A stretch of DNA of 64,000 bases from Coffea arabica. Taxonomy: Eukaryota; Streptophyta; Magnoliopsida; Gentianales; Rubiaceae. The notes under the pieces are model-generated. The model had not been told where the DNA came from. It worked only from the letters and a program-made list of their open reading frames with translations, and made no database searches. Shown one piece after another: positions 37,220-64,000 of this stretch. A program made the position numbers and the translations under genes. The stretch is from positions 7,254,001-7,318,000 of the forward strand of contig NC_092329.1 of the NCBI RefSeq assembly GCF_036785885.1. The letters are read 5' to 3'. Position 1 is the first letter of the stretch; the number at the start of each line of letters is the position of its first letter.

Positions 37220-37590
37220 CATCTTGTGCCACTTTCTGTCCCACTTTTTATTATATAACTGTTTCTCCTACATAAAAATCATGTTTTAGTTCTTTTTTGT
37301 TTCCTAAAAATTCAATAACTATTAATTGAGTAATATACAAAATTTAACAAATTCAAAATATCAAAATGCATAAAAAATGAGATTTTTTTATGAATTTTCT
37401 GCTGTATTTTTAAATTTTCTATTATATATTGCTTTTTGAAGGTGTTGTATTTATTTTTTACTTAATCAATAGTTATTGGATCTTTAGGAAACAAAAAGGA
37501 ACTAAAACATGATATTTATGTTGGAGAAATAGCAATATAATAAAAAGTGGGACAGAGAGTGGCACAGAGTGTGGGACAGAAGATCCGTTG
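37201..37590. mobile_element. foldback / MITE-like element with long inverted ends
   Basis: 390 bp. The left end caacggatcttctgtcccac is mirrored at the right (agatccgttg at 37581-37590, preceded by the complementary 'gtgggacagaa'). The inverted arms extend about 170 bp each around a short AT-rich centre. There is no coding capacity. Flanking 'caattttat' and 'caattctag' may be decayed target duplications, but this is weak. Confidence 0.7.
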
Positions 37591-40426: not shown

Positions 40427-42192
40427 CACTTCAGATCCTCGGTGACATGAATTCAATGCCAATTCAATGCCACCTCTAATTAAATCGTGTTTCAGGACGA
40501 GGGGCTCTTACATTGAGATCTCTTTTATCCTTTCCTCGTTTTCCTTCAGCACTACAACAAAATACCCTATCCATGAGCTTACCATTACTATCTTTGTGGA
40601 AGCTACTTCTTTTGATTCCAAAACCAACTTCCTTTGCATATGCTAAGTAAAAATTATAAGCATCTTCTTCACTCTCAAATTCCATGCCCATCTTCGGAAT
40701 TAGTTCAAAAGGAATCAATGTATGAATTTTATTTATATCCTTTATCACATTTAAAACTGGTGGAGTGGAAACCTCATCATTGGTAATTTGATCTATCTTG
40801 TCAAAATCCAATCTGCGACAGGATGATACCTCAGTTTCCATAGAAGCCTTAGCATCCATATCCTGCAACCTTTTAAGAGTCGTGACACAAGCAAGACTTG
40901 CTCTAACGCTTGACCCACTGGAAGCTCTTTCTTGTTTTTGCTTTTCCGGGCTTTTTCCTTTCAACAACCCTCGAATCCCGTGTCAACAAAAATCACCTAA
41001 AAATGACAACTAAACCACCTATAAATGACAACTAAGGTCAAAAGCTCCAAATTTGACATATAACGAAACGTGAAATGCAAGAAGGCAATGTTCCAGGTCG
41101 CAATAGAACACACATTTGACGTACAACTATACAAACAAAATAATAGATTACTTTTGATTTAATCATCATGTTTTCAAGATCAGTACATGCATGTTTTAAG
41201 AATTTCATGCAAGTTAATTGCAGTTCAATAAGGAAAAAATGTAAGCAAATTTTTTCCCTCAATAATTTATTAAAATAGTTGAATTTCCAATTCTACTTGT
41301 TCACTACTACTACTTGCAACTAGTCAGAAAAGCTATTTGTTACTTCTTGTATCTTTTTTTTAATTTGGTACATTAGTAAAATTTATAACAATTCTTGAAA
41401 TAATGAATAATTTTTTAATCCCACAAAGTAACTTATTTTCCAGGTATATTACAATTAGTGTGTAAGTAGTCAATTTGACCACTCAATTAATATTTAATCT
41501 TTCCAAACTCACAATTCAATGTAAATTTCACTTTAATGGAAATTGAAAATGAAGATATAAAATTGCATAACATAAGGTAGGGTGATATTGCTTATGAGTT
41601 GTTAAAATACTTACGAGTTGTTGTCTATTTCCTAACTTTCTTAATATTAAAAAAATTGAAATTCGAAATCAAGATCATGGAGCAAATAGTGATATTGATT
41701 TAATAAATCAAAGCTGAAAAACTCAAGACTTAAACCGGATGCAAGGTTGGATAATTACCTGAATAATGTGAAACGTTTTGGTTTGTTCTTTGCTGGAGAA
41801 AGCTAGGGATGGTTGGACTTTAATTTGAGTACTTCCTGAATCTTTGTAGTCAATTTGCTTCAATAGTCGGCCGCTGCAGTTTTAGCTTATTAGGCTACGG
41901 TTGATTGTTCTAAGCAATCAACGATAAAAAGGCTTGGACTTTGGAGGCAATTGTTTAGGGTTATTTTTTTCTTTTTCCTAAAGGAACCGATCTTGAGTGG
42001 TTGCTGTACAAAAATATTGGTAATGGAATTAGACCGGTTGGTTAATTTGGTTCAAAGTTTTAGAGGATAGAGAAAATTTGTGTTAAACCAAACCAAGTTG
42101 AATTATTAAAAAATTAAAGTGCAAATAATAATAGGCCAAGTGGCACAATACTATAGGTGGCATTGGATTCATGTCACCGAGGATCCCAAGTG
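40427..42192. mobile_element. Mutator-like element nested in the LTR
   Basis: 1766 bp with inverted ends CACTTCAGATCCTCGGTGAC (left) and CACTTGGGATCCTCGGTGAC (right, reverse complement). The similarity extends for about 45 bp, with an 11-bp internal duplication in the left end. It is flanked by the perfect 9-bp target duplication ctctcatcc (40418-40426 and 42193-42201). The sister LTR at about 43524 carries the single uninterrupted site, which confirms the boundaries. It contains one FAR1-like reading frame but no transposase core. Confidence 0.9.
40476..40967 (-). CDS. FAR1/FHY3-type DNA-binding domain fragment inside the Mutator-like element
   Basis: 163-residue frame. The C-terminal part (residues about 95-163) reads GMEFESEEDAYNFYLAYAKE, then VGFGIKRSSFHKDSNGK, VFCCSAEGKRGKDKRD and PRPETRF. 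This is the N-terminal half of the FAR1 zinc-binding domain, the DNA-binding module shared by FAR1/FHY3 factors and MULE transposases. It stops before the second part (the usual C-K-A-M and H-N-H segments) and before any transposase catalytic region. The start lies close to the right side of the frame with a basic N-terminus (MLKGKSPEKQKQ). It may be a captured host exon (Pack-MULE) or the head of the element's own degraded transposase. Expression is uncertain. Confidence 0.6.
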   Translation of the reverse strand: MLKGKSPEKQKQERASSGSSVRASLACVTTLKRLQDMDAKASMETEVSSCRRLDFDKIDQITNDEVSTPPVLNVIKDINKIHTLIPFELIPKMGMEFESEEDAYNFYLAYAKEVGFGIKRSSFHKDSNGKLMDRVFCCSAEGKRGKDKRDLNVRAPRPETRFN

Positions 42193-45100
42193 CTCTCATC
42201 CTATGTTTAAGGCTACATGTCATCCTTGTGTGCCCATTGTGCATCAATATGTAATATGTTAACCCATCTATTTATAAAAAATATTATTTAGCCAAAAATC
42301 AAATAATAACAGAAAATCAATACTAATTCCTAAATTTGTACAAAATAGAAAATAACTTCTAAATCCTAAACAAAATAGAAAATTTCTTGACTACTACTTT
42401 AAGTAACTAAAATCAATTAGAAAACTAGTTACTTTAACATAAATTAAGAAACTTACCAAAAAAAATTAAATCAATTTCCTACAAATCTCCACTTCGTACG
42501 ATATTTCTTTTAAGAACCATTTGCCTTCAATTATCAAACACACATCCGAATCAATATAGTCCTGACATTCAATTGATTCAATGGACAAATGAATAAGTGT
42601 AGTTACTCTAAACCCAACATCCTGTTGACTCGTGAGAAGGTGTCTCAATTTACCATCTCTCTTCATAGAATTTTTCTCCCCACCACTTGCAATTCGAAAT
42701 CCCATTCTGTGAGTTATATTTCTAACCGTTGAGACAATCAAACGGTAAAATCACCATACTTCTTCCTATTCTTAGAACTGTCTTGCCAAGTGTGGTTTTC
42801 AATACTCCACCTATTACATAAAACTCGTAGCCATCAGAGTCTTCTTGTGTTTGAAAATTAGATCCCTTCGTTTCTTTAGAACACATGTCACGCCACTTAA
42901 AGAACATAATCCAAATAAGAAAAAATCATTTGGGATGACATATCAACCGTTAGAATTGCGAGAACATCTCCACCGGCTCATGTCAAAAATTAATATTGGA
43001 CTTCACATTTTTCTTGACTCTTGAATCACCTGACTAAATTCACCATCAAGTGTTTTCATGTTTTTCGACTTTTCATTTTTCACCCCCAATGCTTTTTGTC
43101 AAACCCTTGAAACAAGGATATCATTCATTAAATTCTTCAATTGGCAACCGACACTAATATATTTGATCTCAATAATCAACCAGGATCCAACCATAAACCC
43201 CGCTTTGATACCAATTTGTTAAGATTCAAGTGTTTGTGAGCAACCCAATCTCACAATCAAACTCTGATACCACTTGTTGGGATCCAAACGCGGAACAAAC
43301 AACAATTGAGATATCAAATATACAACAATTTAGTGATAAATAAGTCATAAGTATGAAAGATAAACGGCATGCAATATCTAACGTGGTTCGATTCATCATT
43401 AAACCTATATTCACAGAGAGAATATCCATTCTTTATTATGAGAGAAAAACCCTATATAAGAATACAATTTAAATCCAAATCCAACCCTTATATACTATTT
43501 CTCGTCTTCCAAGAATCTTTTCTCATCCTATGTATAAGGTTACATGTCGTCATTATATGTTCATTATGTATCACTTTACAGTATGCTAACTCACCTATTA
43601 ATAGCGAATATTATTTAGCCAAAAACCAAATAATAACAGGAAACCAATGCTAATTCTTAAACTTGTACAGAATAGGAAATAACTTCTAAATTCTAAACAA
43701 ACTAGGAATTTCCTTGCCTACTGCTTACTGCTTTAAGTAATTAAAACTAGTTAGAAAATTAATTACTTCCATACAAATTAAGAAACCTATCTAGAACAAA
43801 TTAAACCAATTTCCTAACAAAAAAACATGCATCTTTCCTTGGTTTCTTCAAGAAACTAACTCGGAAGAATAGCTAAATCGCCTGAAACAAGATCAGGCCT
43901 TGAAATCCATAAAAAGTCTTGTTTACTATTAGCAAGTCCCCATGCAAATTCGACTATTTGCTCAGGTGTCATAATAGCAATGCTTCCAAAGTTGACATAA
44001 ACCATCGAGTTTGGATCTTTCGAATCAGACATTCAGGTTCTTCTTTCCAAAGATTTGATCCAATTTCTTTCAAATTCTTATCTTAACTTGATTATCGAGG
44101 ATGTTTAGCGGCCTAATGGGATAAATCGGAGGAAGATAAGATGAAAGTGCATGTAATACATGCTGTTCCAGTTGTTGAAAGGTATTTATAATGATGGCAC
44201 AAGCCTCTCGAGCTCTCCCAGTTTCTTGCATGATGTATTTTAGCATAAATTCATCTGGATTTGTGGCTCTTAAGAAACTTAGAAGATCCTTCAAACTTGT
44301 ACCTTCTCATCTTGGAATCCAATCTAGAACAATGTCTAGATATCCATTTGTCAAGTAACTAGCATCTGCAAGCCACAAATGTTTTACAACCAAAATATCC
44401 GGATCATAGAACTTGCAAGGAGAAAGGGGTTGGACCCACTCAAAGTTAAAATGTAAAAAAAAAAAAAAAATCATCTCGCACTCTATTATTTACATGAAAT
44501 GAAATTTTTTGCCCACAAAAGTCAATGTTTTGCTTCCACCAATGAGTAGAATGCAGTGAACCACGCAAGAATATTGTTGTCAAATGAGTCCAGAGTACTT
44601 TAGAAAGAAGCAGTAACTGTTCAAGCTATTTCTTTCCTTTTTTTTTTTAATTCCAGAAATACATGGAAGAAGAAAATAAATGACCTCGAAAAATTTTGAA
44701 CTAACATTTTTTTATCAAAAATTAGTCGTACCTTTGAGTGGTATGATACCCTTTTCGATAAACTTGGCAAACTGGAAATACGCCAAGTAGGAAGATGCGC
44801 TGGCGGTCCAAAGAAGAACTTCAGGGATGCAAGAAACTATTCAAGAAACTATTCAGCAGCTGCTAGAGTGAATGTCATTGCTCCATCGGAAACTATGCAA
44901 GAAACCGGGGGCACTCTGGGGAAGAGGTATAATTGAGTGTGGCGAGTAGCTCCCTAAATGAACCTAAGCAATTTCTATTAATAGATTCACAAAAGGTTGG
45001 AATATCTTGGGTAGCATCGACATCAGAAGGAGGAAGTCCGTCAGGAATGGCTTTAAATTGGAAATCAGGCAATCCATTGAGGGCATCAGGACCTGTAGAT

Positions 45101-45293
45101 TTTAGTAAGCGCCTGCGGTTGAATTCTGTGTTGACAAAGGTGATATGAAAACCCTTTGGTGGAGGAGCTTGGCTAGCTTTGCATGGGTTTAATGTGGCCC
45201 TGAGCTGGAGCTGTTATGCAGGCGGGGCTTCTTCTCCAAAAGAGCAATGGAAACCATTCTTCTTGCCGGGGGATTTGAGTGGACAAATTGTAA

Positions 45294-45405: not shown

Positions 45406-45904
45406 AGAAGAGGCTATGCAAATATATTGAAAGGGCCGATCTATTCCTCAACTTGTAACATAATGTTTCACCAAGTGGTCCTCAAATATAATCTTCAGCG
45501 CATGGCAGGTTCTGTCAATTTTTTAAAGCAAATTGACAGATTTTAACCATCGATGCTGTGATTTCTTCTCAATTATCTGTCCAAAATTAAAGTATAAAAC
45601 GCTGGAAGTTCTTCATTTCTTCGTCCACTGGACAAATCTTTCATGAAGGCGGTAACAAAAAGGTGTAATAGATATGTAGCAGAAGTTGAGGTGGCATTTG
45701 TAAGAGGGTTATCGAATGGAGAATTGGAATAAACCCCATAATTAATTGTTATTTGGATTACTCCTATGGAAATCGAAATTTTGGAATCATATCTAAAAAT
45801 TTAGAATTTCTCAATTCGCTAATAACTTGGAGGGTTTTGGATAAACCCCAAGTCTGATTCCCATTTAAAAATGGAGCCTGTCTCGCCACCCATTAAAAAA
45901 TTAA
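45406..45904 (-). promoter_or_regulatory. former promoter/upstream region of the UGT pseudogene
   Basis: Related to the upstream region of the intact UGT and to orphan copies at 48.06-48.2 and 55.03-55.33 kb. Shared text includes 'ggaagttcttcatttcttcg' (45609 and about 55216) and 'aaatctttcatgaagg'. Confidence 0.5.
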
Positions 45905-46710
45905 TATATAATTATGTACATACATATATAATTATGTATATAATATATATTATAATTATATATTTTGTTATAATATTAGTATAATTATATAATATATTTA
46001 TAATTATTATATACACATATATTATATATTACAAAAATATATATTATAATTATTTAATTAAATATAATTATATTTATATAATAATATTATAAATTTGTTA
46101 ATATTATATAATAATATACTTATATTATTTATATATATTTATAAATGTATTTATATGTGCATATAATTATACTATATATGTGTATATAATAATATATTAT
46201 ATAATTATAATTATATTTATTATTATAAATATAATAATATATACAAAAATTTATAATTAATATATAATATACTTTATAATTATATATTAATATAATTAAT
46301 ATTTACATATATTTTATAATCATAATTATATATTTTATTATAAAATTAGTTAATTATATAATGTTTTATATAAATATATATTATAATTATTTAATTAAAC
46401 ATAATTATATTGATACAATATGTTATAAATTTATTAATATTGTATAATAATATATTTATATTATATATGTATATTTATAAATATATATTATATGTGCATA
46501 TAATTAAAATATATATGTGTATATAATATTAATAAATTATATATTTATATATATATTTATTATTATGAATATAATAATATATAATAAACATTATAATTAT
46601 ATAAAATATTATTATAATTAATATTTATATGTATTATATAATTATAATTATATATTTATCTTATAACATTTGTATAATTATATTTAATTATATATATAAT
46701 ATTTTATTTA
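45905..46710. repeat. AT-only block with a hidden period of about 350 bp
   Basis: About 800 bp almost purely A and T. Longer-range order is visible: 'aattatatattttNttataa' begins near 45953, 46326 and 46648 (last copy partial), and the 'tatgtgcatataatta' motif recurs at about 46155 and 46491. This suggests 2-2.5 copies of a unit of about 320-370 bp rather than a simple microsatellite. Confidence 0.65.
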
Positions 46711-48059
46711 ATTAGTAAAAATTTCTTATATCCCATTTACAAAGAGCCAGCGAATCAAACATCAACTATAGTAATAATATACATTCCTCGTACCGAATTA
46801 AATAGATGTATTGGAATGATTGACTCCATTTCAAATCCAAGATGAATGATTCTAAATCCGAATCCGATTCCAACATACGAACCAAATGCCACCTGAATTT
46901 TTTTGAGCTAAATGCTTGCGTATTTATTGTGGGAAAAAGAGAGCTCATTCCTCAAGTTGTTTGATCAAATTCCACATGGAATAGGGGAGCTCATTGCTCG
47001 AGTCGTTACCAACGCCAGAGCTTGCCCCAAATTCCAGAATTAATGCTAAAATGATACTTTGTCCAAAAAAAATAAATAAATAAAATACTGGAAATTCTCT
47101 ACCACAAGGCATTTCTGGCCTTAGGAAGCTATATATGTCTGATTTTTTTAAAATCAAATTAAGAGGAGGGACCAGTAGGTTGAGCAGAATTAAACTCGTT
47201 CATTTCTAGAGTTAAGACACAATATGCTTTTCTAACCAATAGTTAATGAATTTTTCTAATGAATATCCAATTGATACTCATTAGTACACTTAGATCATAC
47301 CCAACTTATCATATGAATTCAAACTAACAATTATTATTCTATTTTATATTTATATATTTTTCTTAATTAACATTATTTTTTCAAAATGTGAACACCTTCC
47401 TAGATAGACCCGTGATTAATTATTTGGTTCTCCACCATGCCTCCTCATTCTTCTCTTCTTGGATAGCAAATTGGCACCATACCCCTCAAAACCAGTCTTT
47501 TTTTGTTTGTTGGGTTGGTTGTGCTTTTTGTGTGAATAGGATGGACATAGACGGTTGTGGCCCAAACGACATATGGCCGTCCCTTGGCCAGCAATGCAAA
47601 ATCTGTAAATGTTAGGTTTAGACAATAAGTCAAAACTCAAGAAATGTGAGTGTAATTTTTAAAATTTGAACAAAAGTCAGTGAAATAGTCAAAACCTCTT
47701 AAGAGGTTTCTAAAATCATCTCAATTAATTTTTTATAACGGGGAAACACCAATTCCCAGTGCGACCAATTTTGGGAGCCCATGAAAACCGTAGTAAATCA
47801 TGCTTGGAGGATTTGTGCACTCAAGGTAAAGGCGTGAAGTTTCTGACAATGTTCGTAATGCACCTTAATGTACTCAAGGTAAAGGGTTTTGTAGAACGCA
47901 CATAATAAATAGAAGCATTTCTTAAAATATATTTTAAAAACTCTGCTACTCTTAAATATCTCAAAATATATTCTAAAAAAATACTCTAAAAATTCTGCTA
48001 CAGTAAAATTTTTCAAAATCACTCCAAAAACAGCTAATTCGAACAGAGGCATAGAAAGG
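46711..48059. other. gene-free stretch
   Basis: 46.87-47.15 kb resembles the far upstream region of the intact UGT ('aatgcttgcgtatttattgtgggaaaa' type text; compare 36435). 47.80-47.90 kb carries the 'gcactcaaggtaaaggcg' dispersed repeat. Frames open on both strands near 47388-47640 match nothing I know. Confidence 0.45.
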
Positions 48060-48201
48060 GCCTATCTATTCCACAACGTGTAACATAATGTTTCACATGG
48101 CAGCTCCTGTCAATTATTTAAAGCAAATTTTACATATTATGTTTCACCAAATGGTCTCAAGAATAATCTTCCGTACATTGTAGGTTCTGTCAAATTTTTA
48201 A
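48060..48201 (-). promoter_or_regulatory. orphan UGT upstream-region copy 1
   Basis: Contains 'taacataatgtttcac' and 'aataatcttccgtacat', shared with 45.46-45.52 kb and 55.05-55.08 kb. It is cut off by the foldback element at 48202. No UGT coding sequence adjoins it. Confidence 0.5.
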
Positions 48202-49019: not shown

Positions 49020-49346
49020 CAATATTAACCCACCATTCACACGACTTCCATCCCTACAGAGGTGGTTATCGAGCGGTGGTGGGGGCTAATGGATATACAG
49101 ATCCAACTAGACAAAAAGAGTGTTATGGCACAACTCTTAAATTTTTTTCGCTGCAGGTGAGGGGTCCAAGGAGGGACTTGGCCACTGAGCCATTGGCTAA
49201 TAATTTTGCTCTTTCTTCAAATCAATTTTATGCACTTTATGATTTCATTATCTAACTTGGCCCCACAAGTTTAGACTTCTCAGCTGCTACAAATGTTTTC
49301 CGGATTGAATTGATGTGACGTTAGACTGAATACCTGGGGTTTCCCC

Positions 49347-50402
49347 TGGGGAAACCTTTATGGTGGGAAGGGCATTGACCGTTCCTACCATAGGTAGAGG
49401 AGCAGAGTATGACACGTATATTTGAAAATAAAGGTGCTAACGGACCGGTTATGTTGTAGTCCTAAAGCGCGTGGAGAAGGTCAGCCATATAGAAACATTG
49501 TATGTGATTTGGTATATTTTAATACTCTACCATTTTCAAAAACATTGATCAAACATGATCCGTTCAATTTCTTTCATTTTCTCCAAAAACTCTCGTTTTT
49601 TCTTCTTGTATCTTTTTCATTTTCAATACATCAGTTTGGACCAAAAAAATAAAATAAAATTGAAAATATGTAAAAGATTCATAAATTAACTCAAAAACAC
49701 TTTATAGGCTACCTAAAATATTATCTTTGTAACTTGCAAAAACTTCAAATAAACATTCAAATACTAACTATTGGTATTTAAAAAATGCACTATATTTTAT
49801 CGAATCAGAATAAATCCTTATACTTTTTTATTTTTATTTGTTTTTAATATACTCAAGTTTTGGTAATAAAAAGTAAGACAACGAAAGGGTAAATTTGGAA
49901 TTACATTTTTTAATATACTCGAAATGAATTCTTTAATATTATATTTTAAAATGAGTTGTAAATAAACAAATAGTTTAAAGTAAGGGAGGCAAGTGAGTTT
50001 CATACCCAAAAAAAAAAAAAAAAAAAGAGGCAAGTGAGATTTTTCAATATTTGTGAGTGTCAAGTAAAATTGTTAGAAACCTCCGGGGAGGTTTATGAAA
50101 TTATCCCAAACAAAAATTTAGAATGAATAAGTTACTTTTTATAACGGTTCTAAATGTTGCTTGAAACTTTATAAATTAGGTGTCTTGAGTTTGCAAAAAC
50201 AATTTCTTGCATATCTATAGCTAGTGGAAACGGAGTTTAAACTTGCTATAGGTTAGTTTCTTGTTTTCCATTATATCCTAGAGGGTAATTTGCCATTCAA
50301 CCTAATTTTATTCTAATTTTATCCAACTAATAAATTAGCTTATGGAAAAATGGGTAAATGGATAATTTATGGAGGAAAGCCATAAAGAGCTGGTGTTTTA
50401 TT
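49347..50402 (+). repeat. left arm of a 1-kb inverted repeat
   Basis: Reverse-complement partner of 53933-54978. The outer end ggggaaacctttatggtggg and the inner end ccataaagagctggtgtttt are mirrored in the right arm. It contains the MULE-MITE-like text 'gaaacctccNgggaggttta'. A 19-A run at about 50007-50026 interrupts it. It may be the long terminal inverted repeat of a large DNA element, but no transposase lies between the arms. Confidence 0.8.
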
Positions 50403-50725
50403 GGAAAACCGGTTTATTTTTAATTTATCCGATAAATAAATTTGTTTATGAGAAAACGGGTACTCTGTTCTTACAATGGAGGAAAGTCATAAAGAACTGG
50501 TGTTTTATTGGAAAATAGATTTATTTTTATTTTATCCGATAAATAAATTTGTTTATGGAAAAATGGGTACTCTGTTCTTATAATGGAGGAAAGCCATAAA
50601 GAGCTGGTATTTTATTGAAAAACTAGTTTATTTTTATTTTATCTGATAAATAAATTTGTTTATGGGAACATGGGTACTCTGCTCTTATAATGGAGGAAAG
50701 CCATAAAGAACTCGTATTTGATGGA
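50371..50725. repeat. 107-bp tandem repeat, three copies plus a partial one
   Basis: ggaggaaagNcataaagaNctNg recurs at 50371, 50478, 50585 and 50692, a constant period of 107 bp. Each unit carries 'tttatttttNNtttatcNgataaataaatttg'-type sequence. The first unit begins inside the end of the inverted-repeat arm, so the tandem array grew out of that arm. Confidence 0.9.
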
Positions 50726-53508
50726 AAAATGATACTTTAGAATACCAATGGATAACAGTTAAAACACATTCACAGATTTGATATTTTAAATAATGAGATT
50801 GTTTTTAGGGGAGTTTTTATGGTTGTATTTTGGGATATTTTTAGAATTTAAGAATTATTTGAGATATTTTATAAAAATTTCAACCACCCACCACCACCCA
50901 CTGGGACCACGGGCAGGAACGCTTGCAGCGGTTTTGTGCATTTTGCACACACGTAACTTTGTTTTCACACTACGTAATTTTGTTTTCATAACGCGTAACT
51001 TTAGAACAAATTTTTGTGGGTTCCACACACGTTGTTAAAAATGAGGTACAAGAAGTGATCTGAACCGTACAAATTTTTTTGGCCCAAATCTTGGCCGTGA
51101 ACAGCTCAGGAGCAGTCCATCTGATGACCGCTCCTGCCCCTCATCCCACCCACTGCCACCCCCCTTCTCCTCTCTCTCTCTCTCTTCTCCTTCTCCTTCC
51201 TCCATTTTCTTCTCCCTTCCACCACCGCCCCCGCTACCACCCACCACACACTGCCACTCCCACTCCCACCCCAATTGGCCCCCTCTCCCCCTCACGTTAC
51301 GTATTTTTATTAATGAAAATTTTTTCCGTCAATGACCTACTCTTTATGGTTTTCCTTTATTATATAATCAAAGTACCAGATTTTAACGAGTATTTTACAT
51401 TTATTTATTTAGTACTTTAAACAATGATATTCAGCAGTTTCTTTCCCTTTTAGACCAACTCTTTTGACTTGTGAACTTTTGTGCTCTCGGAAAAAATTCT
51501 CGATTAATTTTTTATAGAAATGCAAAAGAAAAAAATTAATTATGTATAAATTCCAAAAATACTAATTTATTCACAGGATAAAATCAGAGTAAAATTTCTA
51601 GTGAATAAATGGGTTTAATATGTAATACCCGTGTTCCCATTAATTATTATTTATTCTTGGCTTTCCTCCATAAAGTGCTCATTTTGCCCTTTTTCATGAA
51701 TTACTAGCTCTTTATATCACTCCTCCATGAATTATTTATTTAATTCATGTTGCATGCATAACCCACCAGTCTCCATTTCATAAGTCTAGGGTACCGAAGG
51801 ATTAATAATTTATTTATCAGATATAGTCAGAGTATATGGCGAATATGTGGGTTTAACATGTTATACCCATTTTCCCATAAATTTTTTATTAATTATGCAG
51901 GGTACTGTAGGATTAATAATTTATTTATCAGATAAAATCAGAGCAAATGGCCAATTATACCCGTTTCTATTTATTCTTTATAGAAATGCTACCAATTTAC
52001 AGCTTTGCTGCATGAAGTGCCCATTTTCCCATAACATACCAGCTCTTTATGGCACTTTTCCAACATATGAACATAGCACCCGCTCTTTATGAGTCGTTTA
52101 CTTTTACACATTTAATTGATGTTAAATGTATAATCTACTAGTTTACCTTTCATAAATGTAGGATACTAATGGATAACAGTTAAAACACATTCACAAGATT
52201 TGGTATTTTAAATAATGGCAGCTCTTTATGGCAGTCCTCCAACATATGAGCAAAGTGCCAATAATTAAACTAGTAATTTTTTCGATTTATACATAATTAA
52301 ATTTTTTTTTGGCATTTCCACAAAAAATTAATGAAAAATTTTTATCAGAAAGCACAAAAGTCAAAAGGATTGGTCTAAAAGAGAAAGAATAGCAGATATA
52401 TACAGTACTTGTATTTCACGTTCGAAATGTTACAGTGCTGTTTTTGAAAAACACCCCAAAAAATATCTAATCTAAACGGAGATAGTATTTTTCCACTGTT
52501 TCATCCTTAGAAGAGTGATATAAATACAGACTTATAAACACAGACATACATGTGTTGTGTGTGTATTTGAAGACAACTTCTGCATCCAAAGCTAGCTATT
52601 CAGCTTTTGTGTCTTCATTATTTTTTCTTAAGTATTATAAATTTTTGGAAATTAACGAAATGTCATTATTAGTTCTGTGTATGGATTCAATCCAAAAATA
52701 TGGTTGTATTAGTTAAGTTTAGTTCGTAAAGTTAAAGTCTTCCAAACATACCATAGGAAGAAGTAGCAAGCATTGGCAATGATTTTGCAATATAATATCA
52801 ATTTGAATAACTGACAAAAATTAAAATATCATCATGTTTGATATTGGTTAAGTTTACAAAAATAATAATGAACAATTAAATGGCAGAACCTACTATTAAC
52901 GAAACCTTCCCTAATTGCTTTAGACTTCGTATTAGACGGCAAACAAATTGATTTTGAAGTATTTATTTCCTATAAAACAAAGTTATGGAAAGATCATTTT
53001 TTTAATTGTAATTGTATTCAATTTAAAAAATGAACACATTAATAGTGTGAACATGAAACTAAGAAAATTGTAAATAATATGATTTCGGGGAAAAAAATTA
53101 TGCTATCGACTTTTTTGTATTTATCACGAATTCACATATTGTGGCTATAAATTAAAAAATTTTCGAGATCATCTTTTCATTAATTAGTCTTGTTTTTTTT
53201 TTCCGTACTATCGTTAGTTTGAATGGAAAGTTTAGTTGCACGTTGTTTGTGAGTAACTTCTAAAGTAACTATCCTAATAATTTTTATGATTGCTTAGTAT
53301 ATTTATGTCATGGGTATATATTGTTGGTATGTTGTTATTAATTTTAATAAATTTTTTGGTATATTAGGTGCAGAAAATAGTAGTTTCAGAATTTTTTGAA
53401 TGTAAAAAAGCAATGGGGGAAACAATGAAATAATTGCTGCGAGGGAAACACATGCACAGTGAACGGAGGAAAACATACACAGTAATTGGAGGGGAAAAAA
53501 GGCACAGC
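50726..53508. other. interior of the inverted-repeat structure, no gene
   Basis: 51.15-51.29 kb is a C/T-rich tract. 51.07-51.11 kb shares 'caaatcttggccgt' with 23.05 kb. 51.65-52.26 kb holds scattered, reversed relatives of the 107-bp unit ('tttcctccataaag', 'aataatttatttatcaga'). About 52430-52490 has the 'tgttacagtgctgtttttgaaaa' type repeat. No transposase or other coding region. Confidence 0.5.
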
Positions 53509-53523
53509 GAATGGCGAGAAACC

Positions 53524-53746
53524 TTTTAGTGGAGTTGGCCACCACCTTTGGTGTGGGGTGGGAGGTCCACTTAATGTGGCTTTGTTTAAGATCCATGTGG
53601 GTGCTGTGCACCTGTATGGTCCGATAGTGGTTTAGTCCCTATCAGTTCCCCGTGACCTTATTGGGTCACTCCCTTAGTATAGGCTAGATTAGAACTAGGA
53701 ATAGGTATAGATGTAGACTTTGACAAGTGACAAAAAAAAAAAGAAA
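53524..53746 (+). mobile_element. SINE with 15-bp target duplication
   Basis: About 223 bp ending in an A-rich tail. It is flanked by the perfect 15-bp direct repeat gaatggcgagaaacc (53509-53523 and 53747-53761), typical of LINE-assisted insertion. The head 'gttggccaccacctttggtg' parallels the 'ggtggtcaccaccaacttgg' head of the SINE at 23.2 kb, so a tRNA-derived origin is likely. It sits between the inverted-repeat arms. Confidence 0.75.
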
Positions 53747-53932
53747 GAATGGCGAGAAACCCAGCACTAATGCGTAGGGCCCACTGCATATATGACAACA
53801 GCGTACGGTATTCATTGGTTGGTTGCATCCGGACATGTTCGTTTGGTTTATCTCCGCGCGCATTAGCACTACAACATAACCGGTCCGTTAGCACCTTTAT
53901 TTCTAAATATACGTGTCATGCTCTGCTCCTCT

Positions 53933-54978
53933 AATAAAACACCAGCTCTTTATGGCTTTCATCCATAAATTATCCATTTACCCATTTTCCATAAGCTAAT
54001 TTATTAGTTGGATAAAATCAGAATAAAATTAGGTTGAATGGCAAATTACCCTTTAGGATACAATGGAAAACAAGAAACTAACCTATAGCAAGTTTAAACT
54101 CCGTTTCCACTAGCTATAGATATGCAAGAAATTGTTTTTGCAAACTCAAGATGCCTAATTTATAAAGTTTCAAGCAACCTTTAGAACCGTTATAAAGAGC
54201 AATTTATTCATTTTAAATTTTTGTTTGGGAAAATTTCATAAACCTTCCTGGAGGTTTCTAACAATTTTACTTGGCACTCACAAATATTGAAAAATCTCAC
54301 TTGCCTTTTTTTTTTTTTGGGTTGTGAAACTCACTTGCCTCCCTCACTTTAAACTATTTGTTTATTTACAGCTCATTTTAAAATATAATATTAAACAATT
54401 CATTTTGAGTATATTAAAAAATGTAATTCCAAATTTACCCTTTCGTTGTCTTACTTTTTATTTCCAAAACTTGAGTATATTAAAAACAAATAAAAATAAA
54501 AAGGTATAAGGATTTATTCTGATTCGATAAAATATAGTGCATTTTTAAAATACCAATAGTTAGTATTTGAATGTTTATTTGAAGTTTTTGCAAGTTACAA
54601 AGATAATGTTTTGGGTATTCTATAAAGTGTTTTTGAGTTAATTTATGAATCTTTTACATATTTTCAATTTTATTTTATTTTTTTGGTCCAAATTGGTGTA
54701 TTGAAAACGAAAAAGATACAAGAAGAAAAAAGGAGAGTTTTTGGAGAAAATGAAAGAAATTGAACTGATCATGTTTGATCAATGTCTTGAAAGTGGTAGA
54801 GTATTAAAATATACCAAATCACATACAATGCTTCTATATGGCTGACCTTCTCCACGCGCGTTAGGACTACAACATAACCTGTCCGTTAGCACCTTTATTT
54901 CCAAATATACGTGTCATGCTGTGCTACTCTACCTATGATAGGAACGGTCAATGCCCTTCCCACCATAAAGGTTTCCCC
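53933..54978 (-). repeat. right arm of the 1-kb inverted repeat
   Basis: Reverse-complement partner of 49347-50402. Immediately before it, about 53850-53932 duplicates part of the arm's outer end ('ccgttagcacctttattt' here and at about 54883), so a truncated extra terminus abuts the arm. Confidence 0.8.
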
Positions 54979-55024
54979 TGGGGATACAATGGGTCAGTCT
55001 AATACCCAATGAAATGGAGCCATT

Positions 55025-55330
55025 TGAAGAAGCTCCGACGTTGCACCAAGTGGTCCTCAACAATAATCTTCCGTACATGGTAAATTCAATCAAATTTTTA
55101 AATCAAATTTTACATATTTTAACCGTTGATGATGCTGTGATTTCTTCACAATAATAATCTTTCGTACATGGTAAATTCAGTCAAAGATACAGTTTAAAAA
55201 AAGAAAAAAGTGCTGGAAGTTCTTCATTTCTTCGTCTACTGGAGAAATCTTTCATGAAGGCTGTAGCAAAAGGGTGTAATGAACACGTAGCAGAAGCTGA
55301 ATTTTTATTTTGAACTGAATGCTTGCGTAT
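55025..55330 (-). promoter_or_regulatory. orphan UGT upstream-region copy 2
   Basis: Contains 'accaagtggtcctcaa', 'ggaagttcttcatttcttcg' and 'aaatctttcatgaagg', as upstream of the UGT pseudogene (45.47-45.66 kb). No UGT exon 1 lies downstream on the minus strand; the inverted-repeat structure is there instead. Confidence 0.6.
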
Positions 55331-55519
55331 TTATCATGTATTTAAATCAGCTACTTATACATTATCAATGTAAATAAGATTAATCCATAAATATTATATT
55401 TTTGTTCCAAAGATATAATTTGTATTAAATTATAATAGTTGCCCATTGAGCCTCCACTCTCCTGAGTAGGTATATACAAATTTTACATTCTCTAGAGTAG
55501 GTAATTTACTTCCTGTAAG

Positions 55520-55851
55520 GAGGATTTGTGCACTCAAGGCAAAGGCGTGAAGTTTCTGACAACGTTCGTAACGCGCCTTAAAAGCTCATCTGCAAATGGG
55601 CGTATGTTCCCCATTTATTCAAGTATAAAACTACACGCGTGTTTCTAATAATATCAAATCTGGTTAAACTCTGGTTAATAGTAAATTCTTAAATACATTT
55701 AGTGGTCAAAGTAAATTCTTGAATATATATTATGAACACATATCAAATTTCCTTTGCACCTTCGAACTCTGGTCAATGAGATGCCAAAGCACATTCATCA
55801 ATCAGTTACAAATATGATAGAAATATTGCAGCAAACAACGGATCAGCAATG
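55520..55851. other. duplicated block left of the second copia element
   Basis: In order it holds relatives of about 30838-30890, about 31690-31730 and about 33870-34115, without the Helitron candidate in between. The UGT 3' flank continues after the copia element at 60708. It is part of the permuted duplication. Confidence 0.6.
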
Positions 55852-56155
55852 TGTTGAAACTTTTACTTATGTTATTGTTTAACTTGTTTTTCAAATGGAG
55901 TCAATCATTTAGTGGCCTAGAGTTTAGGAATTTGCTGTATACGTTGGAGTCTTTCAGTTATGATTTAGTCAGCAGATTTAATGGCTTAATGGTCTAGTCT
56001 TTAGGAGTAGTAGGGTTATGGAGAAGGTGCCAGATATGGGACCTAATCTTTAGGGATTTCAGTTGTGCATTTTGCCTATTTAAAGGCTCCAAAAGGTTAT
56101 GATTAAATATGACTTTCGGCCACAGTAGTATTGTTATCTTTTTTGTCTCTTATCA
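55852..56155 (+). repeat. 5' LTR of the 55.9-kb copia element
   Basis: 304-bp direct repeat with TG...CA ends; partner at 60399-60702. Confidence 0.93.
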
Positions 56156-57827
56156 GTGGCATCAGAGCTACAAGATTCCTGAGACCCGAGAGTGAAACAC
56201 CTGAAATTATCTACTCCTCCCCACTACCCTATCCAAATGGCCAATGATTCAAATTTTGTGCAAGCCGCCATCCCTCGCTTTGATGGTCACTATGACCACC
56301 GGAGCATGCTCATGGAAAATTTTTTACGATCCAAAGAATATTGGTCAGTGGTTGAATCCTGAATTCAAGAACCACTAGTAGGTGCAACTGTGACAGATGC
56401 TCAACAAATAGACATTGAAGCTAGAAAGCTCAAAGACTTGAAAGCGAAGAACTATCTCTTCCAAGCTATTGATCATCCCATCTTGGAGACTATTCTTTGC
56501 AAAGATACATCCAAGGATAGTTGGGATTCAATGAAAAAAAAATATCAAGGCTCTTCCAGAGTGAAGCACGCACAGCTTTAAGCCTTGAGGAGGGATTTTG
56601 AAGTTTTGCAGATGAAGGATGGGGAATCTGTTACAAGCTTTATTGGAAGGACGATGGAAATTGCAAATAAAATGAGATGCTATGGAGAAGAGATTAAAGA
56701 TGTTAACATAGTAGAAAAAATTCTGCGTTCTATGACGCGAGAATTTAACTATGTTGTATGCTCAATTGAAGAGTCAAATGACATAGATGACCTCTCTCTT
56801 GATAAATTGCAGAGGTCTTTGTTAGTCCATGAACAGAAGATGAATCGAGGCTAGACAGCAGAGGAACAAGCTTTAAAAGGTTCTACCAACACTCGCTCTA
56901 ACAGCTCAAAAGGAAGAGGTAGAGGCCGAGGAAGAGGAAGGGGAGATCGAGATCATGACAAATCTAAGGTAGAGTGCTTTAGATGTCACAAATATGGTCA
57001 CTATGCTTCTGAATGTGTCACTGAGCTGCCAAATTATAAAGAAAGAGAGGAGAACTCAAATTTTGCCGAAGAAACGAATGAACCAGAAACTTTGTTGATG
57101 GCTGTCCATGAAGGAAAAAAGATTGAGTCGAATATTTGGTATGTCGATACAGGCTGCAGCAATCACATGAGTGGAAGTAAGTCTTCTTTTTCGAATCTAA
57201 ATGAAAGTTTTCACTCTACTGTCAGTTTTGGTGATTTCTCTACTGTGAAAGTGATGGGAAAAGGTGATGTTAAGATACATACTAAGAATGGCCTTGTGAA
57301 AACTATTTCTAATTGTTGTATGTTCTTGATTTGAAAAGTAATTTGTTGAGTGCTGGTCAATTGCAAGAAAAGGGGTATGTCATTACAATTAAGAATGGCA
57401 CTTGTGAAATTTATGATCCTGATAGAAGAAGTCCTATTGCGACTGTCTAAATGAGTTCTAATAGATTATTTCCAATGAAAATTGAAAGCATTCAATCTTG
57501 TTTGATGGGTGAAGTAAAGGACCCCTCATGGTTGTGGCATTTTCGTTATGGCCACTTAAGTTTTGGGGGACTGAGGGCTCTACAACAGAAAACCATGATG
57601 ACAGGGCCTTCGGAAATTACTGTTCCCTCCCTAATTTGTGAAGACTGTGTTGTCAGCAAACAACATCGTTCTCAGTTTCCCAAAGGAAAGTCTTGGAGAG
57701 CAAAGGATCTGTTAGAGCTAGTGCATTCAGATATTTGTGGCCCAATAAACCCATCCTTTAATAGAGGTAAAAGATACTTAATTACCTTTATTGATGATTT
57801 TTCAAGGAAAACGTGGGTTTATTTTTT

Positions 57828-57979
57828 GAGTTAATCTTTCCTACACTGACGGTGTATACACTATCAACGTTAGATTCATGACATGTGTGCAAAAGTTGAA
57901 TTTCAAATTCAAATTTGCATAGTTGTCATTCATCCAACGCTGATAGTGTAAACACTGTCAGTGTAGGAAAGATTAATCC
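57828..57979. mobile_element. MULE-type MITE inside the copia element
   Basis: 152 bp with inverted ends that share 'TTAATCTTTCCTACACTGAC' / 'ATTAATCTTTCCTACACTGA'. The arms run about 55 bp with few mismatches. It is flanked by the 9-bp target duplication ttatttttt (57819-57827 and 57980-57988). It inserted after the copia element, so it was mobile within roughly the last million years. Confidence 0.88.
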
Positions 57980-60398
57980 TTATTTTTTACAAGAAAAATC
58001 AGAAGCTCTTACTATATTTAAAAGGTTCAAAGCTCTTGTGGAAAATGAAGCAGGCAAGGCTATTAAGTCTCTTCGAACAGATCGAGGTGGCGAGTATTGC
58101 TCAGAATTTGAAGCTTTTTGCATGTAACATGGCATTTGAAGAGAACTTACAGCTACACATACACCACAACAAAATGGTGTATCGGAGCGAAATAACAGAA
58201 CAATTCTTAATATGGTGAGAACTCTATTAACAAGAGAAAGAGTTCCAAAGACCTTTTGGCCGGAGGCTGTAAACTGGAGTATTCATGTTTTAAACAAAAG
58301 TCCAACTTTTGCTGTTCAAAACAAGACTCTTGAAGAGGCCTGGAGTGGAAGAAGACCAGTTGTAGATCACTTTAGAATCTTTGGTTGCCTCGCTTATGCC
58401 CACATCCCGGATGCGAAAAGGAAAAAGCTTGATGACAAAGCTGAGAAATGCATCTTTCTTGGTGTAAGTGAATCATCCAAAGCCTATAAATTATTCAACC
58501 CACTAACGAAGAAGATTGTGACCAGCAGGGATGTTGTTTTTGAAGAAGAAAGCACCTGGGATTAGGATGGGCGGCAGCCTAAACAAGCCCTTTATGATGA
58601 TGATGCTAAACAGGAGCAAGTTCCAGCACTTGTCATGCCACAAAACTCTTCAGATACAACTCAAACAGTCACTGAAATTTCACAACCAGTTGCTAAAGTA
58701 AATGAAGAAGGAGCCCGGTCAGTTGGTCGAGTTAGAAGAAGGCCTGCTTGGATGGAAGATTGTGAGGTAACTGGGTTAAGTAATCCAATTACTCATTTTG
58801 CTTTGTTCGCAGATTGTGATCCTACAACTTTTGAGAGTGCCGTCAAAGAAGAAAAATGGCAAAAGGCAATGGATGATGAAATCAATTCAATTGAGAAGAA
58901 TGACACTTGGGAGTTGTGTGATCTTCCTAAGGGACATAAAACCATCGGTGTCAAATGGGTCTTCAAGACAAAGCTAAACAAATATGGCGGTGTTGACAAG
59001 TACAAAACACGCCTGGTGGCAAAAGGATATAAGCAGTAGTACGGGGTTGATTATACAGAAGTATTTTCTCCAGTTGCAAGACATGACACGATCAGATTGG
59101 TGGTTGCATTAGCAGCTCAAAATTCTTGGCCTATCTTCCAGCTAGATGTCAAATCAGCATTCTTGCATGGGTATTTGGAGGAGCAGGTATTTATTGAGCA
59201 ACCTCCTGGCTATATTAAAGTTGGGAATGAGAATAAAGTTTTTAGACTGAAAAAGGCTCTTTATGGATTAAAGCAAGCTCCGAGGGCTTGGTATAGTTGA
59301 ATTGAGACTTATTTTCTTAAAGTTGGTTTTATAAAATGTCCTTATGAGCGTACAATGTTTGTTAAGATTGAAGATGGGGGGAAGCTTCTTATAGTCTGCC
59401 TGTATGTTGATGACCTTATATTTACTGGAAATTGTGATACCATGTTTGGAGAATTCAAGAAATCCATGATGACTGAATTTGAAATGACTGATCTTGGTTG
59501 GATGCATTATTTTCTTGGCATAGAAGTAATGCAATCAGATGATGGAACTTTTCTATGTCAAACAAAATATGTGGGAGAAATTTTGAACAGATTTCAGATG
59601 AAGGATTGCAATTCTGTAAGTACTCCAATTGAATGTGGCGTGAAGTTACACAAAGATCATGATGGAAAGAAGATTGATAGCACATTCTACAAGCAAATTG
59701 TAGGCAGTTTAATGTATCTTACTGCAACAATGCCGGATATAATGTATTCTGTGAGTTTAATCAGCAGATATATGGAAAGTCCCACGGAGCTGCATTTGTT
59801 AGCCGTCAAGAGAATCCTTCGTTATTTGCAAGGAACTCGAAACCTAGGGATATATTACAAGAAGGGTGAAAAATCTAACTTGGTGGGTTATACTGATAGT
59901 GATTATGCAGGAGATCAAGATGATGGAAGGAGCATTTCTGGCTATGTTTTTATGCTTGGAACAGGTGCAATCTCCTGGTCGTCAAAGAAGCAACCAATTG
60001 TCACCTTATCCAGTACAGAAGCTGAATTTGTTGCAGCTACGGCTTGTGTTTGCCAAGCCATATGGCTGAGAAGAATACTTGAGGAGTTGTAGTTCAAGCA
60101 ATGTGGAGCCACTATAATACTATGTGATAACAGCTCTACAATCAAGTTATCAAAGAATCCAGTGCTATACGGAAGAAGCAAGGACATCGATGTAAAGCTT
60201 TATTTTTTGAGAGATCTTTGCAAAGATGGAACTGTTGATTTGATGCATTGTAAGAGTGATGATCAAGTTGCTGATATATTCACCAAGGCGCTCAAGAGAG
60301 AATCGTTTGTGAAACTCAGAGGATTACTAGGTCTCTGCAACCTAGGTTCAGTCAAGGTTGTAAACTGATGTTAGCAAACATCAGCTTAAGGGAGGGAT

Positions 60399-60702
60399 TG
60401 TTGAAACTTTTACTTATGTTATTGTTTAACTTGTTTTTCAAATGGAGTCAATCATTTAGTGGCCTAGAGTTTAGGAATTTGCTATGTACGTTGGAGTCTT
60501 TCAGTTATGATTTAGTCAGCAGATTTAGTGGCTTAATGGTCTAGTCTTTAGGAGTAGTGGGGTTATGGAGAAGGTGCCAGATATGGGACCTGATCTTTAG
60601 GGATTTCAGTTGTGCGTTTTGCCTATTTAAAGGCTCCAAAAGGTTATGATTAAATATGACTTTCGGCCACAGTAGTATTGTTATCTTTTCTGTCTCTTAT
60701 CA
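60399..60702 (+). repeat. 3' LTR of the 55.9-kb copia element
   Basis: 304-bp partner of 55852-56155. Confidence 0.93.
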
Positions 60703-60852
60703 CAATGAAAAATATTAAACAAGAAATAAAGAACTCAAGAAGCATTTTTGAAAACGAACAATGCATTACGAGTGATTAAAAAGAAAATCTCTAACCAAGT
60801 CCAAATTCAACGAGTCGAAGAACAACTCTTTAGATTCACGGTTCTTGATGTT

Positions 60853-61977
60853 TCAAATGCTTGGATTGAGAAGCACTTGATGAATCAAATTCTCAAGATT
60901 TGAGTTAGAATCTATCACAGCCATTTCTGCCAGTTTTTTCCAGTCCATGGCTTACTTCTTCATTTCCTTGCCCTTCTCCCCAGCCATTAACTCGCTAACA
61001 AGGCTTTCAATTTCATCCCTCTTGACATTATTGTCTATCTCCATTCCAATACCCTATTTAGTGCAGCAAAACCAGCAATTAGTTTGTTGATCAGCAAAAA
61101 ATGGCCAGCAGATCACAGGCACCCCATAACTAATACTTTCGATTGTGGAATTCCACCCACTATGAGTTAAGAATCCTCCAACAGAAGGATGGCTGAGAAC
61201 TTTCTCGAGGGCACCAGCCTGCAAACATGCTTCTTTCTTTGGTTTCTTCAAGAAACTCACTTGGCAGAATAGCAGAACTGCCTGAGACAAGATCTGGCCT
61301 TAAAATCCACAAAAAGTTTCGTTTGCTATTAGCAAGTCGGGTCCCCAAGCAAATTCTACTAGTTGCTCAGGTGTCATAACTGCAATGCTTCCAAAGTTGA
61401 CATAAACCACAGAGTTTGGATCTTTCGAATCAAGCCATTCAAGACATTCTGGCTCTTCCTTCCAGAGATTTGATTGAATATCTGTCAAAGACTTATCATG
61501 CACATGATTCTCTAGCAAGTGTAGTGGTCCAATGGTGTAAATTGGAGGAAGATAAGATGAAAGTGCATCTAATACACCATGTTCGAGTGGTTGATAGGTG
61601 TTTATAATGATGGCAGAAGCCTTTCTAGCTCTCTGAGTTTCTTCCATCATGAATTTCAGCACAAAATCATCGGGATTCGTAGTTCGTAAGAAGCTTGGAA
61701 GATCCTTCAAGCGTATACCCTCTAATCCTGGAATCCAATCTAGAACAGTATCTAGATATCCATTTGTCAAATACTGGCATCTGCAAGGCATAAGATGTAC
61801 GATACCAAGCATCATCAGAATCATTCAAGGGCATGGGGGCAGTGCAAAATTTGATGCTTTTTACATAGAAATATTCTTGAAAAACAAATATTTTCCAACT
61901 TAGTTAAAAGAAAAAAGAAATCTTACACTTTCTAATTCATTAAATTAAAATTTGACTACAAAGTCAATGTTATGCGT
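60853..61977 (-). pseudogene. UGT85-type pseudogene: exon 2 and part of the intron only
   Basis: Very close copy of exon 2 of the intact UGT (61780 down to 60853, stop at 60853-60855), followed by the first about 200 bp of the neighbouring intron up to 61977, where homology ends abruptly at the position equal to 35322. Exon 1 and the promoter are absent. Lesions relative to the intact gene: a 1-bp loss near 61772, a 5-bp insertion near 61338, a 2-bp loss near 61206, W to stop after CCTK (near 61054), and K to stop in the MKKKAMDW region (near 60954). PSPG residues [11 protein letters not shown] remain. Non-functional. Confidence 0.88.
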
Positions 61978-62999
61978 GGGTACAAATGGGATAAAACCAC
62001 TGGTGCAAGCTACAATGCAGTGGGTACAAATGGGAGAAAGTATCTTTTGCCTGCCCTTGTTGACCCTAACACTTTAGAGTGCTCCACTATTGTGTGAAAA
62101 AAACACATTGTACATTTTACTTTTTTTGTTCATGTAAATATTAATATTAAGTAATTTTCATATTCAATTTTGCAAAAGCTGCTGCTTCCTTTTTTTTTTT
62201 TTTTTTTTTCCTTTTTCCTAACATTTTCCTTACGAAGGTCAAGTTTAATCTTCCATAAGAGAGAAAAGTAGATGTACAATCCCAATGTGACCAATTTTTG
62301 ATGCCTTCATTTAGATTTCATATTTCTTTTGGTTTGTTTATTTAAGTGATCTTAATTACAAGCTGGAACTCAAGATGCAAGGGCTCTAAGTTGAGCTAGC
62401 CATTGGTTCATATTTTCCAATTACTTTTTTATCTTACATATATCAAATCATTACAATATATTTTTTTATAAAAAATTCAAAACATAGTAATCCAAATGCA
62501 ACTGATTTCATATTTCTTTTAGTTTGTTTAATTGAGTGAGTTAAATTACAACTTAGAACTCAAGATGCACGGGCTCTAAGTTGAGCAGGCCCAAAATAGG
62601 GTGGAGTGGCTTGGATTTGGCCATGTTCAGATTGAAGTTTTAAAGAATTTTTTTTATATTTTTATTTTCATATTTCCTAATCACCTTTTTACCTTGTATA
62701 CATTAAATCATTACAGTATATTTTTTTACAAAAATTCTATAAAATGTCAATCCAAATGCAACCTAATGTATCATGCGTCCTATGTCCCGGCCTAAAGGTG
62801 CAAACCTTTGAGCTTAGATGAATATCGCGCGCGTGAAGTTTATGACAATGCTCGTAACATGCCCTAATCTACTCAAGGTAAAGGTTTTTGTAGGACGCAC
62901 ACATATAATCCTGGGTAACATCCTACAGTGTCCTTTAGTGTCACGGTGGTTAGTAGTTTCGGTTTGGATGATGCATTTTAGAATGGGCAAACTCTTATT
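61978..62999 (+). pseudogene. truncated 3' end of EXO-like copy 6 plus its downstream flank
   Basis: 61991-62097 repeats the last about 36 codons of the plus-strand EXO-like gene ([20 protein letters not shown] ... CSTIV, stop near 62095). 62098-62999 then follows the same downstream flank as 29478-30394 at roughly 90-95% identity by eye. The 5' nine-tenths of the gene is missing; the left neighbour is UGT intron. It cannot encode a functional secreted protein. Confidence 0.9.
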
Positions 63000-63727
63000 A
63001 TTATACATATGTATAAAAGAGCGAATGCAATGGCCGAATTGAGTGCTTGTGTTGGTGATGTGGCCAATTGTGATTGGCTAAAGAGTGTTCGTCCAAATTT
63101 TTTATTCCCACGATGCTGTTACTGTTCACCATTTGCTCTGCAGGCCACTTTTTGTGGCCTTTTACACCGCAGACTTGATTGATTGACTGGTTAGAATTTG
63201 GGAGAAGTAGTGGACAAAAAATTTTCCTCCTCTCCCCTGATTTGATTTGCAGATCACCGTCACAAGTCATCTCCCACTCTACACTTTCCCCTCTCCATTT
63301 CTTCATCATCACCGCCTCCATTACTCCCTTTCTTCCTCTGTTTTCACTTTCTTTCTTTTTCGTCACCCTGATCATTATCATTCAGAAATGAAAAACTACA
63401 TCCAACCACCTCCACTTCTCCATTTTTTTCTTCTTTGAAAGCCGACCTTTTCATTTCTTTTTTTTTTCCCTTTCTTCTTTCTTCCTTTACCCAAGGGACC
63501 AAAACAGAAAAATGCAGATGATTACTATTGTCTCACATCTTGGTTGGAGAGTGTTCGTCCAACTTGTTTTCATTTTTCCTCTTTCATTGTTTCTCTGTTT
63601 TTCCTTCTAACTGACTAACTGATAACGTCTAATTCTAATTCTATTCTAACAAGACCTAAACTCCTAAACTAAGCCCTAGGGTTTTTGACGTCGCGCCGTT
63701 GTTTCTCCAAACCCCTCAGGCAACGAA
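63000..63727 (+). promoter_or_regulatory. promoter and 5' UTR of the RPL7A gene
   Basis: Polypyrimidine-rich (63220-63360 and 63430-63490), as is common upstream of ribosomal protein genes. It contains a telo-box (TAGGGTTT at 63677-63684, i.e. AAACCCTA on the other strand) 44 bp before the ATG, typical of translation-machinery promoters. A palindrome ggccactttttgtggcc lies at about 63144-63160. Confidence 0.6.
63677..63684 (-). promoter_or_regulatory. telo-box
   Basis: AAACCCTA on the minus strand, within ccctagggttt. This element is enriched near the start of plant ribosomal protein genes. Confidence 0.6.
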
Positions 63728-64000
63728 ATGGTAAGGCGGCTCTTCACCACCAAGTTATTTCTGTCTTCTCGATGATGATTGTTACTGATACACATATATG
63801 CAGATGCTGCATTCTAATTTCCAATCTTTCGTTTGGTTTTGAAAAAAAGGCCATATCTCTGACATTTTGAGTTCTTTGTGTTGTCATTGATGGATGCTTT
63901 TTTTTTGTTTTGAAGGCTCCAAAGAGAGGTGCGAGGGCTCCAGGTGCAGTGGCGAGGAGGAAAATCGAGAAGGTGGCGAATCCTCTGTTCGAGAAGCGTC
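63728..64000 (+). CDS. RPL7A: 60S ribosomal protein L7a (eL8), 5' part, cut by the window end
   Basis: Exon 1 contributes only the start codon (63728-63730), followed at once by a GTAAGG donor. The intron runs 63731-63915 and ends TTTTGAAG. Exon 2 starts GCT CCA AAG at 63916 and is open to 64000. Joined, it begins MAPKRGARAPGAVARRKIEK and continues to NPLFEKR. This is the basic N-terminus of cytosolic eL8, an rRNA-binding protein of the large subunit near the peptide exit side. An intron right after ATG is usual for plant eL8 genes. The remaining about 230 residues lie outside the window. No odd features. Confidence 0.93.

Follow-up and report, generated by a model that had tools for sequence, protein, structure and literature searches.

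Circle or linear array? A permuted duplicate at the end of a UDP-glycosyltransferase gene cluster in Coffea arabica

Introduction

The Coffea arabica DNA analysed here (contig NC_092329.1, positions 7,254,001 to 7,318,000; this whole stretch of 64,000 nucleotides is called the window, and all coordinates refer to it) contains a tandem array of UDP-glycosyltransferase (UGT) genes. At the right end of the array lies a block, 55520-62999, that resembles pieces of the interval 29369-35322 in permuted order. A preliminary description of the sequence proposed that this interval formed a circle, which opened at one point and was reinserted. The locus thus raises the question whether a circle is required, or whether such an order can arise within a linear gene array. 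We conclude that the block does not need a circle. Our tentative preference is for a linear end-joining scar, produced by tandem duplication and deletion at the right end of a decaying UGT array.

Results

Two halves in swapped order

Comparison of the window with itself revealed two long matches. The segment 60771-61977 corresponds to 34117-35322 with 59 substitutions in 1201 columns and 6 gap events (11 bp; BLAST identity 94.2%), and 61989-62999 corresponds to 29369-30395 with 59 substitutions in 993 columns and 9 gap events. The lower BLAST identity of the second match (89.4%) is mainly due to its 52 gapped bases. Both blocks are on the same strand as their sources and their order is swapped, which confirms that the end of the source interval (35322) has been joined to its start (29369). 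The core of the permuted match is real and far beyond chance.

The closest relative of the left half is UGT-A (34200-35999, minus strand), an intact gene of 481 amino acids, in which exon 1 (35480-35999) and exon 2 (34200-35125) are separated by a single 354-nt GT-AG intron (35126-35479). Exon 2 contains the PF00201 family (Pfam), and its nearest solved structures are 2pq6 and the cyanohydrin glucosyltransferase 7zer. No Pfam family was found in exon 1 (35481-35999) or in the open reading frame (ORF) 61300-61824 of the copy. We take the genes to belong to the UGT85 subfamily; a literature search for UGT85A together with tandem duplication, gene cluster and pseudogene found no paper. The copy, UGT' (60708-61977, minus strand), comprises part of the 3' flank, a frameshifted exon 2 and 197 nt of the intron. 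It lacks exon 1; the cut falls inside the intron, at a distance of 197 nt from its 3' splice site.

The right half derives from the plus-strand region 29369-30395 (X), consisting of the 3' end of EXO and the DNA downstream, with a repeat copy at 30160-30297. EXO (28527-29477, plus strand) is an intact EXORDIUM-like gene of 316 amino acids belonging to the Phi_1 family (PF04674, E 8.1e-121, Pfam). Its copy, EXO'-X' (61989-62999, plus strand), starts with the final 109 nt of the EXO reading frame and ends 0.9 kb before the coding sequence of an eL8 (RPL7A) gene begins. The right flank (63000-64000, plus strand) runs into the start of that gene, with coding exon 2 from 63916 (match to 4v7e, presumably a wheat structure, E 2.1e-05).

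A copia element (55852-60702, plus strand) interrupts the block within the UGT' 3' flank, as previously described. Its long terminal repeats (LTRs; 55852-56155 and 60399-60702) are 97.7% alike and it is bordered by a 5-bp target duplication, CAATG, showing that it arrived later than the block. Inside the copia element, 57831-57976 is a miniature inverted-repeat transposable element with identical 20-nt terminal inverted repeats and a candidate 9-nt direct repeat, TTATTTTTT, 3 nt outside them.

Left of the copia element the matches are smaller and collinear. The UGT-A 3' flank (33878-34199, plus strand) matches the block partially at 55689-55850, the first part of the UGT' 3' flank (33878-33959 to 55689-55783; 34049-34122 to 55776-55850), and again from 60771 on. 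A 37-nt match, 31698-31734 to 55579-55615, is 81% identical. The relatives of 31.7, 33.9, 34.05 and 34.2-35.32 kb therefore stand in source order, as had been claimed; the piece assigned to 30.84 kb turned out to belong to a multi-copy repeat (see below).

The junction carries a templated filler

UGT' and EXO' are separated by an 11-nt filler (61978-61988). The filler with its edges, GTGGGTACAAATGGGA (61976-61991), recurs exactly at 62020-62035, 44 nt away on the EXO side, and 14 of its 16 nt are present at 29400 in the source. Over the whole window, 47 of 63784 16-nt words recur within the next 100 nt, and 10 of the 49559 words of mixed base content do so. For the 11 nt of the filler, shuffled versions were found within 100 nt of the junction in 31 of 200000 cases. 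Real 11-mers recur more often (53/9099 within 100 nt on either side, 329/63789 within the next 100 nt), and the case for a templated filler rests on the 16-nt match. The UGT end is GT, the same two bases that precede the copied stretch; an identity of 2 nt is too short to weigh.

Judged from these features, the junction is a product of end joining with templated filler. The recurrence would be a mark of polymerase-theta-type end joining. According to PMC5217109, insertions at Arabidopsis breaks match DNA within 100 bp, with a link to polymerase theta offered as a suggestion. The present filler resembles such insertions, which match DNA within 100 nt of the break. That paper also describes a short identity between the primer end and the sequence before the template, for which there are only the 2 nt here. 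In contrast to those insertions, the junction is seen as an old scar. Circle closure, linear duplication and a repair patch are not separated by the junction alone.

The left edge dissolves into the array

The segment 55520-55581 is a copy of a repeat that occurs at least five times (30.16-30.30, 30.81-30.92, 47.80-47.90, 55.52-55.58 and 62.79-62.90 kb). Its assignment to 30.84 kb does not hold: the copy at 55519-55581 (plus strand) matches 47806-47868 (59/63) as well as it matches 30840-30901 (57/62), which lies in the plus-strand copy 30808-30923. The repeat was also tried as a tracer of parentage and rejected, for the 55.5-kb copy shares some bases with the 47.8-kb copy and others with the 30.8-kb copy and the alignment is not decisive.

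Nor is 55520 an edge. Homology runs on leftward: 55040-55300, 55297-55334 and 55519-55581 are collinear with 45465-45689, 46893-46927 and 47806-47868, respectively (E 4.6e-42, 8.9e-07 and 1.6e-22). The latter segments belong to the region upstream of UGT-B (45465-47868, plus strand), which has a repeat copy at its end, and the DNA directly left of the reported block (55040-55334, plus strand) is thus of the UGT-B upstream type. Weak matches to DNA upstream of UGT-A (55204-55239 to 36307, E 0.006; 55308-55338 to 36423, E 0.002) appear to agree with this. A head-to-tail array is expected to show the order upstream DNA, repeat, 3' flank and UGT. UGT' can therefore be read as a unit of the array next to a decayed neighbour, and the left half probably represents an ordinary unit of the UGT array.

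These boundaries bear on the proposal that the circle opened at a single point near 30.4-30.8 kb. The right end lies at 30395 and the left end at best at 30840, array-type DNA continues leftward, and 444 source bases (30396-30839) are absent at the supposed opening, as is a counterpart of most of the source between 30.9 and 33.87 kb. A single opening was therefore not borne out, although it could be true yet hidden by later deletion. The only direct repeat at the outer ends, ATTATA (55393 and 55429 versus 63000), carries no weight as a target-site duplication.

Divergence on the two sides of the junction

Uniform divergence on both sides of the junction had been suggested as a mark of a circle. 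Over all aligned sites the two sides did not differ clearly (p = 0.30). At neutral sites divergence was 8.7% on the left (62/716; left flank, synonymous sites and intron) and 6.3% in X noncoding DNA (56/884, leaving out 109 EXO columns with 3 differences; p = 0.08). The left flank set consists of four BLAST-found pieces (255 columns) and 76 columns of 3' flank, and is biased low by the dropping of unalignable stretches (55339-55518, 55616-55688 and most of source 30.9-33.87 kb). In the ~350 nt around the junction the counts were 16/348 on the left and 10/361 on the right (p = 0.23).

Neither side is uniform. The left varies over five segments (p = 2e-4): synonymous differences amount to 9/38.0 at 34203-34400, 2/62.7 at 34401-34720 and 11/88.3 at 34721-35125, with 7/196 in the intron and 33/331 in the flank. 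The right has 10/361 up to 29732 and 49/632 beyond (p = 0.001). When the intron was dropped, a choice made post hoc, the comparison became 55/520 versus 56/884 (p = 0.0055). A clear left-right difference, which had been named as grounds for refuting the circle, was not found. Because both sides are uneven, divergence was rejected as a clock and is unable to separate the models; it neither supports nor refutes a single common origin.

The low synonymous stretch between UGT-A and UGT', 34401-34720, contrasts with 20/126.3 in the rest of exon 2, and may reflect gene conversion, a possibility that is weakly indicated. The longest difference-free run (137 nt) was equalled in 210 of 5000 random placements, and the 63-nt run in X in 4181 of 5000.

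The array has gained and lost members

On the source side, 30396-30680 aligned with the UGT' flank with a score of 107 (shuffled maximum 45.5) and with the UGT-A flank with a score of 63.5 (shuffled maximum 47.5). This plus-strand stretch is the remnant 3' flank of a lost gene, UGT-0. The UGT' segment 60717-60770 resembles UGT-0 from 30531 on (76% across the entire match). UGT-A lacks a corresponding segment: its matches to the UGT' flank stop at 34122/55850 and resume at 34117/60771. UGT' is therefore not a plain copy of the present UGT-A unit. Upstream-type DNA at 48085-48201 is a further remnant of a lost unit. Taken together, these sequences show that UGT units have been added to and lost from the array repeatedly.

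The 3'-flank homology of the source side becomes clear at ~30398, just past the end of the X' match at 30395. The segment 30298-30395, compared with four stretches of the array, did not score above shuffled sequence (19.0, 11.0, 8.0 and 10.0; shuffled maxima 23.5, 18.0, 17.5 and 19.0). One alignment spans 30395 (30349-30444 to 33850-33931, score 28.5, shuffled maximum 25.0). The DNA to the left of EXO (0-28 kb) yielded no UGT sequence.

Other features of the window

UGT-B (39722-45278, minus strand) is broken, its exon 2 being split by an insert (40177-43822) that contains an ORF with a FAR1 DNA-binding domain. Between UGT-A and UGT-B there is a palindromic element with identical 20-nt ends (37201-37590). 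The source intergenic DNA contains a candidate insert with imperfect terminal inverted repeats (30960-31655), presumably akin to hAT-type elements, for which no clean target duplication was found. Left of the block, 49339-54987 is an element with inverted ends of ~1.06 kb that are 95% alike; no target duplication longer than 4 nt was found at its ends.

EXO belongs to a second tandem family, which adjoins the UGT array. Across 2153-29477 there are five EXORDIUM-like ORFs in minus and one in plus orientation; the five EXO relatives at 2.1-22 kb are on the strand opposite to EXO. At 14088-18523 this cluster contains a very young insertion, an LTR element whose two 398-bp end repeats are identical and whose ORFs appear copia-like on visual inspection.

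Discussion

Any explanation of the block must account for two new adjacencies, UGT'|EXO' and X'|eL8 flank. We lean, at somewhat less than an even chance, towards a linear end-joining scar. The collinear order of the unit, the cut in the UGT' intron, the filler join to the EXO end with ~0.9 kb of downstream DNA, and the stop at 62999 are its observed components. The stretch from the interior of EXO to the UGT intron would have been duplicated in tandem by polymerase-theta-type end joining, which would create exactly the intron|EXO junction, and a later deletion reaching to the eL8 flank would have taken what remained of the second copy. The preliminary description had itself pointed out, correctly, that tandem duplication with outer deletions yields the same junction. 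The mechanism is ordinary. Theta-mediated joining produces tandem duplications in worms (PMC7368036), and in Arabidopsis mutants rich in circles no circles corresponded to the large tandem duplications (PMC10462705). The UGT-0 flank and the remnant at 48085-48201 imply repeated duplication and loss of units, and neutral divergence, if anything, is higher on the left (p = 0.08), as expected if the UGT duplication predates the junction.

Several observations weigh against this reading. The 180 bp at 55339-55518 had no match in the comparisons made, and a break at that stretch is therefore possible. The closest relative of UGT' is UGT-A, with the 31.7-kb piece included, as the circle model says, and the similarity near the junction is also predicted by a copy from a single source. 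No part of the second array copy was seen right of 62999. Finally, two events are needed, where a repair patch needs one.

Such a patch is the next explanation to consider, although we regard it as unlikely. A break at the array end would have removed UGT' exon 1 and what followed, and the gap to the eL8 flank would have been filled, by synthesis-dependent strand annealing or template switching, with ~1 kb copied from EXO-X, ~25 kb away, and sealed by the templated filler. Both new adjacencies would then result from a single event, and the right side may be the younger one (p = 0.08). Gene fragments carried in repair patches were reportedly described in grass genomes by Wicker et al. in 2010. 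As in the grass cases outlined in PMC3445842, a copied gene fragment is joined at a break; unlike in them, the donor is a neighbouring cluster, and the patch, of ~1 kb, is putative. PMC3445842 and PMC4423477 describe filler insertion in plant break repair, and the short filler is indeed templated. The fillers at rice transposon excisions reported in the latter paper, however, averaged 13 bp (range 1-123 bp), far under 1 kb.

The circle itself is doubtful, and we consider it less probable than the patch. The 5.95-kb interval 29369-35322 would have been closed by theta-type end joining in the plant germ line, which would account for the UGT|EXO join, then opened at about 30.4-30.8 kb and reinserted at the end of its own cluster, with later loss of internal parts and the copia insertion. 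Colour-sidedness in cattle is reportedly an example of circle-mediated segmental duplication. The block shares with duplications of this kind, as portrayed in PMC7450558 and PMC7188851, the swapped order on the same strand and a short indel at the join; the human cases in the former show microhomology or 1-13 bp indels there. No more than 0.45 kb separates the two ends, 30395 and 30840, the minor matches (31.7, 33.9 and 34.05 kb) are in order, and divergence over all sites does not clearly differ. Set against this are the array-type DNA left of the supposed opening, the 444 bases lost there and the missing internal parts; a further left breakpoint would be needed, and the circle would have had to land in array order beside UGT-upstream DNA. 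Moreover, the block is local and tandem, source and copy lying in the same UGT array, and its left edge is no edge. The human circle cases are listed as non-tandem in PMC7450558, and Takahashi and Innan (PMC7188851) name tandem duplication with partial deletion as the typical false positive for circle duplications. The circle is thus not specifically supported, and linear routes are likelier.

In a reversed history, the arrangement of EXO-X next to eL8, now found at 62-64 kb, would be the older one. Duplication would then have carried EXO-X to the left side of the array, creating a separate junction at 30395/30396, and a UGT'-EXO' deletion would have made the 61977 junction. Such a history would suit the start of flank homology close to 30395 and the shuffle-like scores of 30298-30395, but it is very improbable: UGT DNA left of EXO would have to be lost in an additional step, and one alignment crosses 30395.

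The locus illustrates that a permuted order within an array of tandem genes can look like the product of a circle, and that the apparent left edge disappears when the units of the array are set out. The junction is one more end-joining scar in the record of duplication, truncation and copy loss in UGT clusters. Were the circle true, the block would be a naturally occurring, dated case of circle-mediated duplication in a metabolic gene cluster of a plant.

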